Positions 3,617 through 18,446 of a stretch of 22,780 bases of DNA are shown in pieces. The stretch's first letter is position 1. Each line of letters begins with the position of its first letter. Source of the DNA: a virus. The translations under genes and the position numbers were made by a program. The stretch covers positions 1 to 22,780 of the IMG/VR virus record IMGVR_UViG_3300006810_000428; one strand, 5' to 3'. The notes beneath the pieces were generated by a model that saw nothing but the letters and a program-made list of their open reading frames with translations, had not been told where the DNA came from and searched no databases.

Positions 3617-6048
3617 AGGATGTAAAAATCAATATAGCTAATACTAGTTTCCCGAATCAATTTGCTACTGACGAGGAGAAGATGTCTCCTGAATATGGCC
3701 TCCAAGTTGGACAAGCTATTCAGTATGAGTGGTTCAGAAAGGACGGTGTTAACTGTCGGTATTATAGCCAGTGGAGGGAATTCCATAAACTAAGATTGTA
3801 TGCGAGAGGCGAGCAGCCTGTTCAAAAGTACAAGAATGAATTAGCCGTTGATGGTGACTTATCTTATTTAAATCTTGATTGGACTCCTGTTCCTATTATC
3901 CCAAAGTTCGTAGACATTGTGGTAAATGGTATGGCTGACCGTTTGTTTAAGGTTAAGGCGTATGCGCAAGATGCTATGTCTCAATCTAAGAGAAGTAAAT
4001 ACCAAGATATGATTGAAGGTCAAATGGCTGCTAAGGACATTTTGACTATTATTCAAGATAATACAGGTGTTAATCCTTTCTCTATGGATCCTGATGACCT
4101 TCCTGCAAACGATGAAGAGATGTCTTTGTATATGCAGCTTAATTACAAGCCTGCAATTGAGATTGCTGAAGAGGAAGCTCTTAATACCATTTTAGAAGAG
4201 AATAAGTATTTAGATTTAAGAAAGCGTGTTGACTATGACCTTGCTGTTTTAGGTATAGGTGTAATGAAGCATGAGTTCTTAAAAGGTTCTGGAGTTCAAC
4301 TTTCATATGTTGACCCTGCCAATATAGTATACAGCTATAGTGAAGACCCTTACTTCAAAGATTGTTTCTACTGGGGTGAGATAAAGACTTTGCCAATTAC
4401 TGAGTTAATCAAGATAGACCCTAGTCTTACTAATGAGGACCTAGAGGAGATATCCAAGTATAGTCAGAGTTGGTACGATTATTATAATGTAGCTCAGTTC
4501 TATGAGAATAGTATCTTCCATAGAGATACCGCTACCTTACTATACTTTAACTACAAGACAACTCAAAAGATAGTTTACAAGAAGAAGTATCTTGATAATG
4601 GTGGTGTGCGTTATGTAGAAAAAGATGATTCATTCAACCCTCCTGCTGAAATGATGGAGGAAGGTCGATTTGAAAGAATTGAAAAAACTATTGACGTATG
4701 GTACGAGGGTGTTATGGTGATGGGTACTAATATTATTCTCAAGTGGGAGCTTGCTAAGAATATGGTTAGACCTAAGTCTTCATCTCAACACGCAATACCT
4801 AATTATGTTGCTTGTGCTCCAAGATTATACAAGGGTAATATTGAGTCATTGGTTAGGCGAATGATACCATTTGCTGATTTGATTCAGATCACTCATTTGA
4901 AGTTGCAACAAGTAATTGCTAGAACTGTCCCTGATGGTGTATTTATTGATGCGGATGGATTGAATGAAGTTGACTTGGGAACAGGTGCTGCTTACAATCC
5001 TGAGGACGCTCTTAAGTTATACTTCCAAACGGGTTCTGTTATTGGTAGATCGTATACGCAAGATGGTGACTTCAATAATGCTAGAGTTCCAATTCAAGAG
5101 CTTAATTCAAATTCTGGAGCCAATAAAGCTCAGATGTTGATATACAACTATAACCACTATCTAAATATGATACGTACGGTTACCGGATTGAATGAAGCTA
5201 GAGATGCGTCAACTCCTGATGCAAACTCTTTGGTTGGATTGCAGAAGCTTGCAGCATTGAATTCAAATACCGCTACTAGACATATATTGGATGCAGGTCT
5301 TCATATTGTTAAGAGTATATCTGAGGCATTAACTTATCGTATAGCTGATATTTTAGAGTATGCTGATTTTAAGGATGACTTTGCAAGCAGAATAGGGAAG
5401 TACAATGTATCTATATTGAATGAGATAAAAGACTTGTACATCTATGACTTTGGTGTTTTCATTGAGATATCTCCAGATGAGGAGCAGAAAGCTCAGCTTG
5501 AGCAGAATATCCAAATGGCTTTATCTCAAGGTGATATCAATCTTGAGGATGCAATTGACATTCGTGAGATTAAGAACATCAAGTTGGCTAACCAATTGCT
5601 TAAGGTTAAGCGTATCAAGAAGCAAGAAAAAGAGCAGCAGTATGAGATGCAGAAGCAACAGATGGTTGCTAATCAGCAAATGGAATCTCAGAAGATGGCG
5701 GCTCAAGTTGCCTTGCAGAAGATTGATGCTGAAGGCCAAAGTAAGATGCGTACTAAACAGGCTGAGATTGCTTTTGAAATCGAGAAGATGAAAAATGAAG
5801 CAGAGCTTAAGCGTATGTTGATGGCTGAAGAATTCCAATATCAAATGAGGATTGCTGAGTTACAAGGTGGTACTTTGAAGGATAGGGAAGAGATGAAAGA
5901 AAAAGCAAAAGATAAACGTATAAGTTTACAAAACACACAACAATCTAAACTTATAAGTCAAAGGAAAAACGACTTACCTCCAATAAACTTTGAATCTAAC
6001 GAGGATAGTCTAGATGGCTTTGACTTAGCAGAGTTTGAACCGAGATAA
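3613..6048 (+). CDS. Portal protein (crAss-like)
   Basis: An 811-residue protein that should form the dodecameric DNA entry ring at one capsid vertex. Its place between terminase and scaffold/capsid, its size, and the N-terminal run LDWTPVPIIPKFVDIVVNGM (about 89-108) match portals of the crAss-like group. The middle has a portal-type region (DYDLAVLGIGVMKHEF; YVDPANIVYSYS) followed by clip/stem helices around residues 480-600. Residues about 666-750 form a long Gln/Met/Lys/Glu-rich coiled coil (KEQQYEMQKQQMVANQQM and following), then a basic segment and an acidic tail ending EFEPR. The start overlaps the terminase stop as ATGA, so translation is probably coupled. An alternative reading frame stays open across the coiled coil only because of its codon composition. 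Confidence 0.9.
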   Translation: MKDVKINIANTSFPNQFATDEEKMSPEYGLQVGQAIQYEWFRKDGVNCRYYSQWREFHKLRLYARGEQPVQKYKNELAVDGDLSYLNLDWTPVPIIPKFVDIVVNGMADRLFKVKAYAQDAMSQSKRSKYQDMIEGQMAAKDILTIIQDNTGVNPFSMDPDDLPANDEEMSLYMQLNYKPAIEIAEEEALNTILEENKYLDLRKRVDYDLAVLGIGVMKHEFLKGSGVQLSYVDPANIVYSYSEDPYFKDCFYWGEIKTLPITELIKIDPSLTNEDLEEISKYSQSWYDYYNVAQFYENSIFHRDTATLLYFNYKTTQKIVYKKKYLDNGGVRYVEKDDSFNPPAEMMEEGRFERIEKTIDVWYEGVMVMGTNIILKWELAKNMVRPKSSSQHAIPNYVACAPRLYKGNIESLVRRMIPFADLIQITHLKLQQVIARTVPDGVFIDADGLNEVDLGTGAAYNPEDALKLYFQTGSVIGRSYTQDGDFNNARVPIQELNSNSGANKAQMLIYNYNHYLNMIRTVTGLNEARDASTPDANSLVGLQKLAALNSNTATRHILDAGLHIVKSISEALTYRIADILEYADFKDDFASRIGKYNVSILNEIKDLYIYDFGVFIEISPDEEQKAQLEQNIQMALSQGDINLEDAIDIREIKNIKLANQLLKVKRIKKQEKEQQYEMQKQQMVANQQMESQKMAAQVALQKIDAEGQSKMRTKQAEIAFEIEKMKNEAELKRMLMAEEFQYQMRIAELQGGTLKDREEMKEKAKDKRISLQNTQQSKLISQRKNDLPPINFESNEDSLDGFDLAEFEPR

Positions 6049-11482: not shown

Positions 11483-14400
11483 ATGGTAAACTTCTCTAGA
11501 AACTTTGTACTAGGTAAGATGAATAAAGTCGTTGATGAACGACTTGTTCCTAATGGTGAATATATAGATGCGTTAAATATACGAATGGGATCTACCGAAG
11601 GGGCTGAAATTGGTGTTATTGAAAATACCAAAGGGAACTCTAGGTTGACTACATTAAGGTATATTGATGGTACTGAATTGAGTGGAGATGCTAGATGTAT
11701 TGGAGCTATTGAGGATAGCGAAGAGGAAATTATATATTGGTTTGTTCACGATCCATCATTCACTGTAGGAGCCACAGGTAAATTAGATTTAATTGTTTCT
11801 TACAATTCAGTTCGTGATATACTTACTTATCATGTTGTGAGTATAGATGATGGGGGTGGTGTAAATACTAAACTTAATTTCAATCCTGAGTACTTAATAA
11901 CTGGAGTTGATATCGTAAAGACAGGTAACGGTGATGAGGCGTTAATATTCTTTACTGATTACTATAATCAACCACGATTCATAAATAACTTAAGGAGTTA
12001 TGCTCTTCCTTCAGGTAATGTAGACCAATTGAATGAAGAAGCTTTATTGGTTATAAAGAAACCACCAATTGCTGCTCCAACTATTGAATTATCAAAAACA
12101 AATAGTCAAGAGAACTTCCTAGATGAAAGATTTATATCCTTTGCTTATAGGTATAAATATAAGGATGGGGAGTACTCTGCTATATCTCAATTCTCTAGAC
12201 CTGCATTTGAGCCTAATCCGTATGAGTTTAGTGTAGACAGTTTCTTGAATGAAGGGATGGTGAATTTCTACAACAAGGCTACTATAACTTATAATACAGG
12301 AGGCCCATTAGTAACTGGTATTGATATACTCTTCAAAGATATGAGTACTGGCATTATTAAGGTTGTAGAGAAGATTGACAAGACAGGTCCTGATAATACT
12401 GATGTTCAGTATGATTTCACCAACAGTAAGATATTTACGGTACTTCCTGAGTCAGAGATACTAAGACTGTACGACAATGTTCCATTGTTAGCTAAAGCCC
12501 AAACAATTATGGGTAATAGACTGATGTATGGTAACTATGTTGAGGGTTATGATTTGCTTACCGATGATAATCAACCTGTATTATTAAATTATGTGGTTTC
12601 ATTGGAGTCTAATGTAATTGGACTAACATCTATAACTGGGTCAACCACTAGTGGTAGTTACACTATCGATGGGGCTATTACAGTTAATGACTCTAGAATG
12701 CTAATATTACTTGCTGATGTTGATTTGGTTAAGGGTGCTGCTATATCTATAGATTTTAGATTTGAGCATGACCAGTTTTCTGGAGGTAGTCCATCAGCCA
12801 CTACGCAGCCTATTGAATCTACATTCAATTTTGTTTTGCCTAAAGATTATACATCTGTATACGAAATGGCTACGAGTGTTGAGTTCCAAAATGCAGTTGG
12901 TACTGTTACCAATATACAGCCATTTGCTGATGCTTGTAATGGTAATACGTTTACAGATATCTTTAATTGTGCTGTGCCGGATACGTTGGGTGTCTATACA
13001 AAAGAAAATAGCGGTATTGCTAACGATGGTGACCCTATAGCTATTATAACTAGCCCTACTAGTAATATTGTAGGTTTTCAATTGCCAGCTGTTAAATACG
13101 TAGACAATTCAGGTGGTGGTGGAGCTGATGCTTATGAGTATTACTCTGTAAACTTTATAGATGCATCATTTACTGAAGTTGCCAATCCTACTAGCCTACA
13201 TAGTAATAGAGGGTATGAGATTGGTATTGTGTATATGGATGAATTCAATCATTCTACAACTGCTTTGGTTAGTGAGCAAAACAATATTTATGTTCCTTGT
13301 AGTGCATCGTCTTTACAAAATAAAATACAGGTAACTGTACCGCCTACACAAGTTCCTCCATCATGGGCAACTAGATATAAGTTTGTAATCAAGCCTGATC
13401 GTGAGAATTACGAAACCATATACAGTTCTATATTCTTTGCTGATCCTGACTCAAATTCTACTTACTTCTTATTAGAAGGAGAGAATGCTCAGAAAGTTCA
13501 GACGGGAGATAGATTGATTGTTAAGGCTGATACAGGAGGTGCTACACGTAATTGCCTATATGCTACCGTATTAGAGAAAGAAGCTCAAGCTGAAGACTTT
13601 ATAGATGTTCCTAGTACAGTTGGTAGTGGTAATGTTACAGTCCCTGCTGGTGTCTACATGAAGATAAATGCCAATGAGTTCTCTACTGTTCGTGATGACC
13701 AATCTATAATTGGCCTAGGCAAGAAAGAAGTAACTCAAGAGGATACAAACGAATTTGCATTACTAAAATATACAGTAAATATAAAAGATGGTTCAAATTT
13801 CGTAGATTATAACATACCTGCTGGAAGTCGTATTGAGATGAACTTTAGATTTAGGCGTTGGGGTTCAGGAGATGGTAATAATCAGTGTGAGAGAAGAATA
13901 TATGATTTGAATCTTGATTTAATTTCTTCTGGAGATTATAGTAACTTCAAAGATTGGTGGGATGGTGACAATGTAGAAGAGTTGCTTAATAGCGGAAGTC
14001 AAACTGTTGGGGCTAGTAGTAGTGCTTGCGATATTAGCAACCAATATATTGAAACACTAGCATCAGATGATGGAGATATTAGCCAATCTTTATGTATTAA
14101 CTATTTTAGATTTTACAGAGATACCGCTACAAATAAGTTACAATTATTAATTAGGGGCACAAGAAGCTGTAATGGATATGTATCTAAAAATAATAGATCA
14201 TCTCATATCAGTGCTAATATTACGGTGTTCCGTGCAGATACTACTATGGTATTTGAGACTGAGCCTCAAGAAGCTCAGCCTGATTTGTTCTATGAAAACC
14301 ATTTGTCGTTCCCTATAACAAATGGATTCCATGAAGGAAACGTACAAAACCAAACAGCTACTCAATCTGCTATTGTCGATACTGAGTTCTTTAATTGCTT

Positions 14401-17200
14401 CTCATTTGGTAACGGGGTAGAGAGCTACAAGGTACGTGACTCTATCGTAGGTAAGCCATTATTATTGGGTAATAAAGTAACGGCTGTCGCTTCTCAAGAT
14501 TACAAGAGAGCTGAGAGATACGCAGATATTACGTATAGTGGCATATTTAACGATGAATCGAACGTAAACAAGCTTAATGAGTTCAACCTAGGGCTGCTTA
14601 ATTTCAAGGCCTTAGAAGACTCCTTTGGGGCTATATACGTACTTGACGGTCGTGAGACCGATGTCCTTACACTTCAGGAGGATAAAATATCTTACGTACT
14701 ATCCGGCAAGAATCTATTATCAGATGCTGCCGCAGGTGGTGCTATCACATCAATACCTGAGGTATTAGGTACGCAGATAGCAAGAACAGAAAAGTACGGT
14801 ATAAGTTTTAATCCTGAGAGTTATGTGAATTGGGGATACGATAGGTTCTTCACTGACGTTAAGAGAGGTGCTGTAATCCAACTAAGAGGAAACTCAGCAT
14901 CAAATGACCAACTGAAAGTGATATCCGAGCAGGGTATGCGTAGTTGGTTTAGAGATACATTTATTGAGTCATTCGATACTCAGAAACTTGGAGGATACGA
15001 TCCTTACATGACTGAATATGTGTTGGTGTCTAATGAAAGAGCGATACCAATTTTAGATAATTGCATAGATTGTAATATAAGGAAGACATTAAGTTTCTTA
15101 AATCCATCAGGTGAAACTATTGGGTACTGTGTAAACTTGGACGATGCAGTTGGTACGTCAGATATTACTTATGAGGTTGTAAGTATCAACCCAGGAGCAC
15201 AGTTTGACGTGAGTGCTACATACGATGGGACTACTGTAAATACAGGTCTTACATCTACTAGTGGTACTTTGAGTGTAGATAAAGATAAAGTTGCTGTAGA
15301 GCAAGTTGACTTGAGTATAACGTCAACAGGCCCTGTAGTGTTGTCAATAAACGTACAGTGTCCTACTGCTCAAACCATTGATGTTATACAGGTAGTGGTA
15401 ACAAATGAATGGGAGTCAGGAGAAACAATGCATACTGAGTATTACTATGAAGATGGTACTTATGTAAGCCCTACTACATTTGCAGGTGTTACATTTGCTA
15501 CAGGCACAGATAGACCATTAGTAACTAGATACAATAGAGTTAGTGGTCCAAAAGGGAGTGCGGCTATACCTACAGATAATAGTACTGTTACAATAGGTGC
15601 TCATAAGTGGGCTACTGATAGTTATATTTGGAATCCTACTAATGACTTGTTTAGATACTTAAGGAGTAATACGCTTTATGATAATAATTCAGCGGATATA
15701 TTATCTCTTATTTCTGCGTCATCGATACCAACTCCTGTAACTTCACCTTTGCCATTTGCAAGCTACTCTGAGTTCAACTCTGGTAGTACAGGTGATTACT
15801 TGTATTTAATATGGGATTTGAGAAACGCATCCGACTTGTTCTTATGTTACTCAGCCACTAGCGCAGAAGATGTTTGTTGTAACTGCCCATCTAGTACGGG
15901 ATATGTAGTTGATGGATCGTCATTGGGTTCTTCAACGTCAATATACACAGATGCTAGCTTAAGTACTTTTGCTGCTGATGGTTATTACTCTGATGGTTCT
16001 ATAGTAAGAGAGCTTATCAGTGGTATATTACAGCCACAACAAACTTGCCCATCATGCGCACATCCATGTAATACAGGAAACATAACAGCTTCTGGTGATG
16101 GTGTGTTTACGATGGATATTGACTTAGGGTCTAGTAATGGTGCTGTAGTTGTAGAGTTCACTCTGCCTACGCCAAATGCTTACCCTGTAGGTGTTAATGC
16201 GGAGTACAATGGAATAGTTTATAATGGAGGTAGTTCTCCTGTATATGGATTCTTGCAAGGTGATGCTAACCTATCTACATGGATAGGGTCAAGTTCACTT
16301 GATTGCGGATTGGTAGCAAATAGTCCACACGCTGCTGTAAACAAATACAGATACGATGGAGCTACATTTGTTACTGATACTTTATTAGAGATAATAACTG
16401 TTCAGAGTGACCAATTAGAGTTAACGACTCAATCTCCTGCTAAGTTCTACATGATTATACCAAAGACATCTGCATCAATTGACCAAATAAGAGTCAATAT
16501 GGTTCAGCTTTGTGGGTCTTTCTCATCTACGGATGTGAATGTTTACTGCCCTGCGGTATTATCTTCTGGAAATGGCAGCTTGGGTTATGCTAACGCATCC
16601 TTAGCTTGTGAGGCATCTATAGACCAAGACATATACTACTACCATGTAAATGGAGCAGCAGGTATATTAGGTCTGTTTGACTTTGTATTCTCAGATGAGA
16701 ATGGTGTCAATCCTTTAGCTAATGGATTCTATAGAGCTCCTGGAATGCTATCAGGTGATGATTGGTTCCAAGTTGAGAATGGAATAGTCATTCAAACTGG
16801 TGCTTGCGTTACAGGATCCGATTATAAACTACGCAGATGTGGTGATGGTACTGAGATATACGCTGATTACGCAGGTAGCGGTATAGTCGTTGGTGACTTC
16901 GTAGATACTGTTGGAGAGCCAACTTGTACTTGGGAAGTTATCGCATTGGTTACTGCTCCTGTCATAAACGATACAATTAATGGATTATTAGCAATAACTG
17001 ATTGTTCACAAGGTTGTGGCCAATATCAGGCGGTAAATAACGATACGGTAAGCCATACATTTACATACTATGCTTGTGGTAGTGGCACACCATTCAATAT
17101 TACATTACCTCCTGGTTATTCAATAAACTTTCAATCACTAATGGATCCGAGTATACCAAGAACAGGGTTGTTCTCAATTACTTGGACTAACTGTCCTTAA
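11483..17200 (+). CDS. Large muzzle-type tail protein with Cys-rich C-terminal region
   Basis: A 1905-residue protein opening with FSRNFVLGKMNKVVDERLVP and GEYIDALNIR, the start of the large tail nozzle or muzzle protein of crAss-like phages (role comparable to T7 gp12). The best-conserved block is about 950-1175: FNLGLLNFKALEDSFG, EDKISYVLSGKN, FNPESYVNWG, RGAVIQL, SEQGMRSWF and GGYDPYMTEYV. From about 1190 the sequence turns into Ser/Thr/Gly-rich beta domains likely to face outward. These carry cysteine pairs (C1194/C1197, C1465/C1466/C1468, C1522/C1525/C1529) and two related modules, about 1465-1522 and 1709-1775, each with a Gly-Tyr/Phe-Tyr turn and ending in a GI(L/V)xxQ stretch just before a Cys. 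A final beta domain ends ITWTNCP. The outer half may contact host or sister proteins (inferred). Confidence 0.8.
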   Translation: MVNFSRNFVLGKMNKVVDERLVPNGEYIDALNIRMGSTEGAEIGVIENTKGNSRLTTLRYIDGTELSGDARCIGAIEDSEEEIIYWFVHDPSFTVGATGKLDLIVSYNSVRDILTYHVVSIDDGGGVNTKLNFNPEYLITGVDIVKTGNGDEALIFFTDYYNQPRFINNLRSYALPSGNVDQLNEEALLVIKKPPIAAPTIELSKTNSQENFLDERFISFAYRYKYKDGEYSAISQFSRPAFEPNPYEFSVDSFLNEGMVNFYNKATITYNTGGPLVTGIDILFKDMSTGIIKVVEKIDKTGPDNTDVQYDFTNSKIFTVLPESEILRLYDNVPLLAKAQTIMGNRLMYGNYVEGYDLLTDDNQPVLLNYVVSLESNVIGLTSITGSTTSGSYTIDGAITVNDSRMLILLADVDLVKGAAISIDFRFEHDQFSGGSPSATTQPIESTFNFVLPKDYTSVYEMATSVEFQNAVGTVTNIQPFADACNGNTFTDIFNCAVPDTLGVYTKENSGIANDGDPIAIITSPTSNIVGFQLPAVKYVDNSGGGGADAYEYYSVNFIDASFTEVANPTSLHSNRGYEIGIVYMDEFNHSTTALVSEQNNIYVPCSASSLQNKIQVTVPPTQVPPSWATRYKFVIKPDRENYETIYSSIFFADPDSNSTYFLLEGENAQKVQTGDRLIVKADTGGATRNCLYATVLEKEAQAEDFIDVPSTVGSGNVTVPAGVYMKINANEFSTVRDDQSIIGLGKKEVTQEDTNEFALLKYTVNIKDGSNFVDYNIPAGSRIEMNFRFRRWGSGDGNNQCERRIYDLNLDLISSGDYSNFKDWWDGDNVEELLNSGSQTVGASSSACDISNQYIETLASDDGDISQSLCINYFRFYRDTATNKLQLLIRGTRSCNGYVSKNNRSSHISANITVFRADTTMVFETEPQEAQPDLFYENHLSFPITNGFHEGNVQNQTATQSAIVDTEFFNCFSFGNGVESYKVRDSIVGKPLLLGNKVTAVASQDYKRAERYADITYSGIFNDESNVNKLNEFNLGLLNFKALEDSFGAIYVLDGRETDVLTLQEDKISYVLSGKNLLSDAAAGGAITSIPEVLGTQIARTEKYGISFNPESYVNWGYDRFFTDVKRGAVIQLRGNSASNDQLKVISEQGMRSWFRDTFIESFDTQKLGGYDPYMTEYVLVSNERAIPILDNCIDCNIRKTLSFLNPSGETIGYCVNLDDAVGTSDITYEVVSINPGAQFDVSATYDGTTVNTGLTSTSGTLSVDKDKVAVEQVDLSITSTGPVVLSINVQCPTAQTIDVIQVVVTNEWESGETMHTEYYYEDGTYVSPTTFAGVTFATGTDRPLVTRYNRVSGPKGSAAIPTDNSTVTIGAHKWATDSYIWNPTNDLFRYLRSNTLYDNNSADILSLISASSIPTPVTSPLPFASYSEFNSGSTGDYLYLIWDLRNASDLFLCYSATSAEDVCCNCPSSTGYVVDGSSLGSSTSIYTDASLSTFAADGYYSDGSIVRELISGILQPQQTCPSCAHPCNTGNITASGDGVFTMDIDLGSSNGAVVVEFTLPTPNAYPVGVNAEYNGIVYNGGSSPVYGFLQGDANLSTWIGSSSLDCGLVANSPHAAVNKYRYDGATFVTDTLLEIITVQSDQLELTTQSPAKFYMIIPKTSASIDQIRVNMVQLCGSFSSTDVNVYCPAVLSSGNGSLGYANASLACEASIDQDIYYYHVNGAAGILGLFDFVFSDENGVNPLANGFYRAPGMLSGDDWFQVENGIVIQTGACVTGSDYKLRRCGDGTEIYADYAGSGIVVGDFVDTVGEPTCTWEVIALVTAPVINDTINGLLAITDCSQGCGQYQAVNNDTVSHTFTYYACGSGTPFNITLPPGYSINFQSLMDPSIPRTGLFSITWTNCP

Positions 17201-17210
17201 GAAATAAATA

Positions 17211-18011
17211 ATGGCGAATTATACACTTACATATGATGACGGAGTACAAGGGTGGGTATCCTTCTACTCCTACGAGCCCGATTGGATGATTGGGATGAAT
17301 AATTACTTTTATACGTTCAAGGGAGGCAACCTTTGGAGGCATAATGTGAACGAGACTAGAAACAACTTCTATGGCGTTCAGTATACATCTAAAATTACTA
17401 GTGTAATAAACCAATCACCGTTAGAGAATAAACTATTCAAAACTTTAAATATAGAGGGAGATGACTCTTGGGATGCTACCCTACAAACGGACATCCAAAC
17501 CACAGGGTTCATAAACAAAGAGTGGTTTGAGAAGAAAGAGGGTGCATACTTCGCATTCGTTAGAAACTCTGGTAGTACGCCTGCTGACCCTGACGAGTAT
17601 CCATTGCGTTCTTTAAATGGTATTGGTAGGTCAATAAATATATCTGGTCCTGCTAATGCGACAGTGGTTGATTTTTCTATCAATCCATTAGTAAGTATAG
17701 GTTCTATTTTATCTGTAGGGGATACGCTTTACTTCTCTCTACCACCTGACTACGACACACCTATTTTATTTGGTGAGGTTACAGAGATAAACGTAAACCT
17801 TAGAGGGGGCATAAATAATATTGTAGTAGACGCTACTCCACCTGGTACTGTCCCAGGTATAAACGATCCTTATCTACTTTATATAAAGAACTCAGTTGCT
17901 GAGTCTCATGGTGTTTTAGGTCACTATTGTGTGTTTGATATTGAGAATGATAACACGAGCCCAATAGAGCTATTTACCATTGAGTCTGAAGTGATGAAGA
18001 GCTATCCGTAA
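17211..18011 (+). CDS. Tail-hub-like protein (crAss-like structural protein)
   Basis: A 266-residue protein beginning with a highly distinctive stretch: GWVSFYSYEPDWMIGMNNYF (14-33), then YTFKGGNLWRHN (34-45), which I recognise from crAss-like tail proteins following the muzzle gene. Further on, FKTLNIEGDDSWDATLQTDI (76-95) and WFEKKEGAYFAFVRN (105-119) complete the core. Residues about 160-227 form a beta module (LSVGDTLYFSLP, GEVTEINVN, PYLLYIKNS), then a C-terminal strand region with LFTIESEVMKSYP. It lies 10 bases after the muzzle stop, without Shine-Dalgarno site. Tail hub is the likely location by gene order; the exact ring is uncertain. Confidence 0.65.
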   Translation: MANYTLTYDDGVQGWVSFYSYEPDWMIGMNNYFYTFKGGNLWRHNVNETRNNFYGVQYTSKITSVINQSPLENKLFKTLNIEGDDSWDATLQTDIQTTGFINKEWFEKKEGAYFAFVRNSGSTPADPDEYPLRSLNGIGRSINISGPANATVVDFSINPLVSIGSILSVGDTLYFSLPPDYDTPILFGEVTEINVNLRGGINNIVVDATPPGTVPGINDPYLLYIKNSVAESHGVLGHYCVFDIENDNTSPIELFTIESEVMKSYP

Positions 18012-18018
18012 AATTTAA

Positions 18019-18026
18019 TATCTTTG
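18019..18026 (+). promoter_or_regulatory. Predicted -7 box (TATCTTTG) just before the GNAT gene
   Basis: The same eight bases as at 9584-9591, here in the short gap after the tail-hub gene. If transcription starts about seven bases downstream, the RNA would begin at or near the ATG at 18033, giving a leaderless message. No clear -33 TTTG is seen. Confidence 0.45.
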
Positions 18027-18032
18027 TACAAG

Positions 18033-18446
18033 ATGGATTTGTACTTAAGACCATTAGATGAAACCGATTATGATGAAATCTTAGTGGGTTGGTGGAACGA
18101 TTGGGGCTGGGATGCTCCGTCAAAAGAGTTCTTGCCGGATGATGGTCGTGGGGGGTTCATGGTATGTGATGAAGATGATACACCAATATGTGCTGGATAT
18201 ATGTACCTTACAAATTCAAGAGTTTCTTGGGTTGATTGGATAATATCTAGCAAGACATACAGAAAGAAACCACAGAGAAAGCAAGCGATTGATTTGCTTT
18301 TGGAGGGGCTCACATTAGTTTGTAAGAATAGTGGGTCTAAATATGTATATGCATTAATCAAGCATAAAGGCTTGGTTGAGGCTTACAAACGCTTGGGGTA
18401 CTCTCAGGCAGATACTTACACAACTGAAATGATTAAAAAACTATAA
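18033..18446 (+). CDS. GNAT-family acetyltransferase-like protein
   Basis: A 137-residue protein with the GNAT layout: N-terminal strand-helix (MDLYLRPLDETDYDEILVGW), two tryptophan-rich turns (WWNDWGWDAP, 20-29), central strands (GFMVCDED, ICAGYMYLT, VSWVDWIIS), a helix where the CoA loop belongs (YRKKPQRKQAIDLLL, 76-90) and the motif-B-like end HKGLVEAYKRLGYS (111-124). GNAT enzymes transfer acyl groups from acyl-CoA to amines; the substrate is unknown. The pyrophosphate loop lacks the usual glycines (RKKPQRKQA instead of RxxGxG/A), so CoA binding may be altered or lost. I chose the ATG at 18033; an in-frame TTG at 18024 would overlap the predicted promoter box. Its place between hub and ejection-protein genes suggests a virion or assembly role (inferred). 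Confidence 0.65.
   Translation: MDLYLRPLDETDYDEILVGWWNDWGWDAPSKEFLPDDGRGGFMVCDEDDTPICAGYMYLTNSRVSWVDWIISSKTYRKKPQRKQAIDLLLEGLTLVCKNSGSKYVYALIKHKGLVEAYKRLGYSQADTYTTEMIKKL

Follow-up and report, generated by a model that had tools for sequence, protein, structure and literature searches.

A crassvirus-type muzzle encoded by two genes, with a cysteine-rich module chain that is fused to it in some phages and separate in others

We analysed a stretch of 22,780 nucleotides (nt) from IMG/VR record IMGVR_UViG_3300006810_000428, here called the window, whose coordinates are used throughout. On its forward strand, the open reading frame (ORF) at 11483-17200 encodes a protein of 1905 residues, to which residue numbers refer unless another protein is named; this text concerns that tail protein, the chain of cysteine-rich modules in its residues 1190-1905 and the gene that follows it. 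The first 1187 residues (11483-15043, +), comprising propeller strands and an Ig-like plus crass-fold region, match PHROG 14478 with an E value of 9.9e-229. A model of residues 1-1200 found its best match in 7qok_A, the muzzle of crAss001 (Z 14.1, root-mean-square deviation (rmsd) 5.4, 359 aligned residues), followed by 7qol_P (Z 13.7), and the next unrelated structure reached only Z 7.9. Confidence was low at both ends of the model, which ought to contain much of the propeller, and the 7qok/7qol muzzle structures were absent among the 50 matches listed by Foldseek alone. The crAss_MUZ profile is matched by 18 of the 30 members of our alignment and leaves the window protein itself unmatched. 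Judging from the modelled fold, the protein is a crassvirus-type muzzle; an earlier reading made from the sequence alone (the sequence-only reading) had already called it a muzzle protein.

The next gene, at 17211-18011 (+), encodes a product of 266 amino acids that matches the Pfam family crAss_MUZ_C (E 2.2e-20, 73.3 bits with a cut-off of 27), and its residues 2-37 match positions 1187-1222 of the 1224 in crAss_MUZ (E 0.003, below the cut-off). In phi38:1, elemoF, Gundel and crAss001 this C-terminal piece forms part of the muzzle protein itself. In crAss001 numbering the match begins at residue 1199; phi38:1 gp97, a single protein, is matched by the window protein as far as residue 1072 and by the 266-residue product from 1078 onward. 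Because the C-terminal piece sits in the next gene here and within the muzzle protein in phi38:1, elemoF and crAss001, the muzzle of the window comes as two separately encoded pieces that flank the module chain: it is not contained in one polypeptide, its C-terminal domain has a gene of its own, and residues 1190-1905 lie between the muzzle stretch that ends near 1181 and the C-terminal piece. This also explains how a muzzle gene of such genomes can be without its C-terminal domain. The sequence-only reading had treated this segment as the outer half of the muzzle protein, a topology that proved wrong, since the segment is inserted before the last muzzle piece, encoded by the next gene. From the sequence and the published domain description we read the break as falling in a turn that joins two strands of the last propeller blade; the two muzzle pieces would then form one propeller, with the insertion at that turn.

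The same arrangement is widespread among the relatives that we collected as loci (numbered L) by searches with the muzzle or with module A, described below. A muzzle ORF reaching profile position 1150 was found in 151 loci, of which 113 were distinct by their last 300 residues and 102 were complete. The start of the short tail ORF agreed within one position in all 84 distinct complete ORFs; the C-terminal domain is held by these 84 short ORFs, and among the loci of that search it lies within the long ORF only in phi38:1 and elemoF. Compared with the crAss001 muzzle gp44 (PF25731 crAss_MUZ plus PF25729 crAss_MUZ_C), the window has the same core fold and the C-terminal domain and differs in having two genes instead of one, an insertion of about 700 residues near the end of crAss_MUZ and the cysteine-rich modules. 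Length variation of the muzzle family by insertions, located in the crass and IG2 domain regions, has been reported (PMC10172136). The muzzle core and C-terminal domain are likewise present in phi38:1 gp97 (Pervagoviridae) and elemoF gp22, which differ in being one protein without the long extension. A close parallel in gene layout is the Pachyviridae pair gp120/gp121 of phi13:2 and of phi19:3, where muzzle and C-terminal piece are separate genes split at the same point and the region 1190-1450 is shared; these two phages differ in having no further gene between the muzzle genes. We found no earlier report of the split muzzle or of the modules among the titles and abstract openings listed from one open-access library.

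Within the chain of the window, the second beta domain is followed by a cysteine motif of the form CYS..CCxC, which we call motif B (residues 1455-1468; 15845-15886, +), and then by module A (module 1 proper, residues 1474-1525; 15902-16057, +), detected by its hidden Markov model (HMM) with an i-E of 1.8e-28. Comparison with relatives places a fusion point between them at 15886/15887 (+). In L004 and L005, the top-ranked split relatives, a stop codon, a 3-nt spacer and an ATG stand at this point, where the window is continuous. A search of viral_contigs found 504 relatives of module A, of which 80 were retrieved. In a comparison of 80 loci, the muzzle ORF of most relatives stops at the equivalent of residue 1468 or after further cysteine-rich repeats, and a new gene opens at the match to residue 1469 or 1474, typically with M(A/P)..YYLD. 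Among 99 distinct complete muzzle ORFs, the end lies 0-4 residues after the first CCxC in 42, 5-40 residues after it in 11 and more than 40 residues after it in 43; three contain no CCxC. A stricter motif B pattern was found in 72 of 97 muzzles and its anchor strand could not be located in the other 25; the CCxC count given here and the alignment count of the four motif B cysteines given below are used instead.

A separate A gene is present in 94 of the 102 distinct complete muzzle loci, in 83 as the only copy (including L025, whose muzzle ORF is cut short) and in 11 together with a copy in the muzzle, and in all 94 the separate module lies within the first 40 residues of its gene. Module A occurs only within the muzzle in four loci (the window, L002, L003 and L075) and is absent from four (L054, whose contig ends 14 bases on, phi19:3, elemoF and phi38:1). 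In a count of 125 locus rows, some contigs being entered twice, a separate A gene stands between the muzzle genes in 118. Among the remaining seven, the window, L002 and L075 are fused, phi19:3 is without A, L077 is frameshifted with A in the middle ORF, and L131 and L160 have an A-headed ORF between the muzzle genes that starts too early for our filter. Thus, in most of the examined relatives, the chain is broken between a B-bearing muzzle gene and an A-headed tip gene, and it is fused in the window, L002, L003 and L075. The 1905-residue protein is a fusion of a muzzle and an A-headed tip protein.

We considered whether readthrough or frameshifting might connect the pieces during translation, in which case all relatives would make one long protein. 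The joints bearing on this are 58, that is, the 62 ORF boundaries in the set of 80 loci minus four breaks by frameshift or premature stop (L025, L055 and L077 twice), and the spacers are indeed short, 1-21 nt in 56 of them. However, all three frames occur (28, 20 and 10 joints), TAA dominates among the stops (54, with two TGA and two TAG) and each tail gene begins with an ATG of its own whose position is fixed, which makes joining in translation very improbable. The three frames and the prevalence of TAA show instead that the A genes are genes of their own. The muzzle region of one contig, L077 (6001-11643), is interrupted by apparent frameshifts that may be sequencing errors; the stretch that is open across B and A is also fused there. 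Module-wise splitting was entertained for L077 and dropped, as its extra breaks look like frameshifts, and these breaks were not used in the joint counts.

On a FastTree tree of the muzzle core, with some long branches and with root and direction not fixed, the in-muzzle state of A changed eight times, at least seven of them on starred branches, and full fusion changed twice. The fused protein of the window, by the Rosetta-stone argument, is direct evidence that gene products made separately elsewhere are partners, and it singles out a protein to seek in virions. Module A is a conserved head on diverse proteins, fused to the muzzle or separate from it, and for this reason it reads as an attachment piece. 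The same conserved head with a diverse remainder, and the nesting of the A gene between the two muzzle genes, would also suit an assembly helper of the muzzle that is not part of the virion and that the fusion in the window leaves attached. We hold this to be quite unlikely, as the fused form is kept in three records (the window, L002 and L003) and occurs again in L075, and in phi13:2 and phi19:3 a Big_9/cadherin-like domain (E 2e-20) takes the place of B and A, at the joint, in a protein annotated by similarity as a virion structural protein. No A or B was seen in these two phages, the A HMM having been run on phi19:3 only, with phi13:2 judged through it as the two are 98% identical there; the phi19:3 alignment continues past the Big_9/cadherin-like domain into the domain that follows A in the window.

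The sequence-only reading had proposed that two cysteine-bounded modules, at residues 1465-1522 and 1709-1775, are duplicates. Its positions (15875-16048 and 16607-16807 in the window) and letters were accurate, and both modules do share (Y/F)(T/S)D and A-x-G-(Y/F)-Y at equal D-to-A spacing, then G-I-(L/V) and a Cys at equal G-to-C spacing, with five more residues between the equal-spacing stretches in module 2 (1709-1775; 16607-16807, +). Two details of the proposed order did not hold: GI(L/V)xxQ fits module 1 only (GILQPQ; module 2 has GIVIQ), and of the two Cys-rich starts C1709 of module 2 stands, whereas the CCNC assigned to module 1 closes motif B. Aligned directly, the two modules match no better than chance (score 31, shuffle mean 25, reached by 129 of 1000 shuffles). 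Their kinship emerges only from the family alignments, with 27 rows for module 1 and 29 for module 2; in the latter, C1 and C67 are invariant, and all rows other than that of the window were chosen by a pattern requiring both. Alignment of the family profiles with hhalign gave a probability of 85% and P 6e-6 over 38 columns. The module-1 HMM scores only 3.6 bits on module 2 of the window protein; among 77 proteins with a module 2, the window protein included, its best further hit is on that module in 73 and elsewhere in four, and about 81% of the 77 score above the 95th percentile of shuffles. The relation is backed by the profile match in the N-terminal half of the module, and the C-terminal half agrees in motif and spacing only. 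Taken with the equal spacings, the profile match makes a distant duplication likely, so the proposed duplication stands at the level of profiles, with module 2 as a likely distant relative that lies farther along the chain than A.

Database searches placed neither module in a known family. Nothing credible was found for the modules in Pfam (best E 0.0016, in 3 of 29 members) or among the sequences of the PDB (best E 0.26), nor in PHROGs for the whole module-bearing proteins (best E 0.03). In a tblastn search of the phage collection with the module, only MW202828 was convincing, and six others had E values of 0.6-2.

The cysteines are kept in relatives, as the sequence-only reading required of its modules. 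The four Cys of motif B are conserved in 47 of 48 relatives, the remaining one being gapped, and those of the closing CxxC of module A in 104 and 103 of 104 distinct copies, with one gap. Other cysteines come and go in pairs. A further pair in module A is complete in 20 of the 104 distinct copies, missing in 84 and never mixed, and its four independent changes are all concordant (p 0.125). In the muzzle, residues 849 and 871 are concordant in 9-10 of 10 independent pairs on the tree (p about 0.002); the pair 802/896 has both cysteines in 46 of 49 sequences, neither in three and no mixed case, and the pair 1194/1216 both in 43, neither in six and no mixed case, these counts being without tree correction. 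Concordance on the tree was 4/4 for 758/868, 2/2 for 802/896, 1/1 for 33/609 and 1/2 for 485/496. The paired changes favour disulfides, although other variable cysteine columns of the muzzle are unpaired, and we infer that disulfides hold the modules. The four conserved Cys of B and the CxxC of A would also allow metal binding. The view that CxxC pairs are unusual in a phage tail protein does not agree with what has been published, as the tail barrel and fibre hubs of crAss001 are reported to be stabilised by disulfides (PMC10172136).

One step beyond this, we offer tentatively that the B-A joint is a cysteine snap-fastener, in which six conserved cysteines, the four of B and the two in the CxxC of A, would tie the muzzle and tip polypeptides to each other through disulfides or a metal that they share. 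If this were true, the peptide bond would be dispensable at the joint, and phages could split, fuse, repeat or exchange tips there with no rebuilding of the muzzle.

The sequence-only reading had further regarded the region of the modules as the best candidate for a host-contact surface and had proposed comparing the variability of the outer half with that of residues 950-1175. The outer part is indeed the more variable, with an identity to the window protein of 0.34-0.41 compared with 0.76 for residues 950-1175. Within the detachable segment, however, A is the most conserved piece (0.55), module 2 comes next (0.46) and the domain between them is the least conserved of the three (0.39; 76 relatives, 75 for module 2). 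As the most conserved piece of the detachable part, A fits a joint better than a host-contact surface. We accordingly consider it unlikely that the duplicated modules themselves meet the host, with their metal or disulfides exposed on the virion, even though A-type modules also occur near tail-fibre ends and in an ORF of Thermobacterium salinum, and one such protein has a weak CBM_56 match, outside its module and below the cut-off. The variability and the similar modules near tail fibres make it plausible that the tip meets the host, and it would be the more variable parts beyond A, and not A itself, that contact the host or a host polysaccharide.

The reading we favour, as somewhat more likely than not, is that the region is part of a decoration chain on a crassvirus-type muzzle. 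The comparisons show that the muzzle is made by two genes, that the chain lies between its pieces, that the A-B joint is fused or separate and, at profile level, that module 2 is a distant relative of A. The tip protein would dock through A on the B region of the muzzle, and the fused form would be the covalent version of the same B-A contact. Several observations weigh against parts of this reading. The docking is deduced from the fusion and the gene order only. As 43 of the 99 muzzles continue for more than 40 residues past the first CCxC, B is often not the last element before the break, and a one-to-one joint leaves unexplained the tandem copies of A, namely the extra 81-residue genes of some genomes, which consist of A plus B alone, and the two copies within the L053 muzzle. 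Modules A and 2 were modelled poorly and gave no fold, the core tree has long branches, most cysteine pairs have few independent changes with one discordant row for 485/496, and variable cysteine columns such as 219, 974, 1305 and 1471 have no partner. Moreover, the A-protein homologue in the nearest named record is annotated as a putative glycosidase, and a host-contact end beyond residue 1775 is not general: among 88 distinct downstream proteins, 18 end near module 2 and another 11 are no longer than 230 residues. The arrangement shows how one group of crassvirus-related phages varies its tail tip: the muzzle, a conserved gatekeeper, is made in two pieces and bears an exchangeable extension at one fixed place, and lineages differ in whether the joint is fused or separate.

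The other parts of the chain differ in how well they could be modelled. The predicted structure of residues 1190-1905 was good only as far as about residue 1455 and failed beyond it, perhaps through misplacement of the shorter downstream rows by MAFFT, and a fold search with this model tested little beyond model residues 1-107. Residues 1190-1296 (15050-15370, +) are predicted as a beta sandwich of the PPC/collagen-binding/GOLD type, with a predicted local distance difference test (pLDDT) mostly of 90 or more. They match 1nqj with Z 11.2 and an rmsd of 2.5 over 95 residues, and SIDT1 rows tie with Z up to 11.8; the likeness to the PPC/clostridial collagen-binding fold is one of fold only, at about 10% identity, and no function follows from it. 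The second beta domain (1311-1454; 15413-15844, +), mostly of high pLDDT, ends after a YLYLIWD strand and is aligned in phi13:2 and phi19:3 gp120. Between the modules lies an unnamed domain (1530-1700; 16070-16582, +) that is aligned in 76 downstream proteins and, in phi19:3 gp120, up to residue 1691. The chain closes with a variable end of further cysteine-bounded stretches (1776-1905; 16808-17197, +), whose content differs between relatives; of the 88 downstream proteins, the 18 that stop about at module 2 have 300-320 residues and the 59 longer ones vary in content. In L112, L114, L115 and L116 (6001-7656), the A-proteins have 552 residues and contain the middle domain and module 2 twice in tandem.

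Modules of the A type also recur elsewhere. In 14 chosen records of 60-65 kb, A is at the muzzle locus in all 14, partly by construction of the search, module 2 is there in 13, and A-type modules recur near the tail-fibre end in two. One such accessory gene is at L171 1448-2164 (+), with a confirmed Peptidase_S74; another, judged by eye, is at L170 580-1050 (-); in both genomes this is a second tail site. L174 has module A at 4797-5156 in an ORF of 120 residues of Thermobacterium salinum, perhaps, again by eye, in a prophage tail region. In L173 5001-6600 (CP070801.1, a metagenome-assembled genome assigned to Aenigmatarchaeota that may be a chimeric bin), a gene with module A is followed by a muzzle C-terminal gene, and the muzzle core was not found within the examined stretch. 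Finally, in the window the muzzle C-terminal gene is followed by a small gene (18024-18446), whose counterpart in MW202828 is annotated as an N-terminal acetyltransferase subunit.

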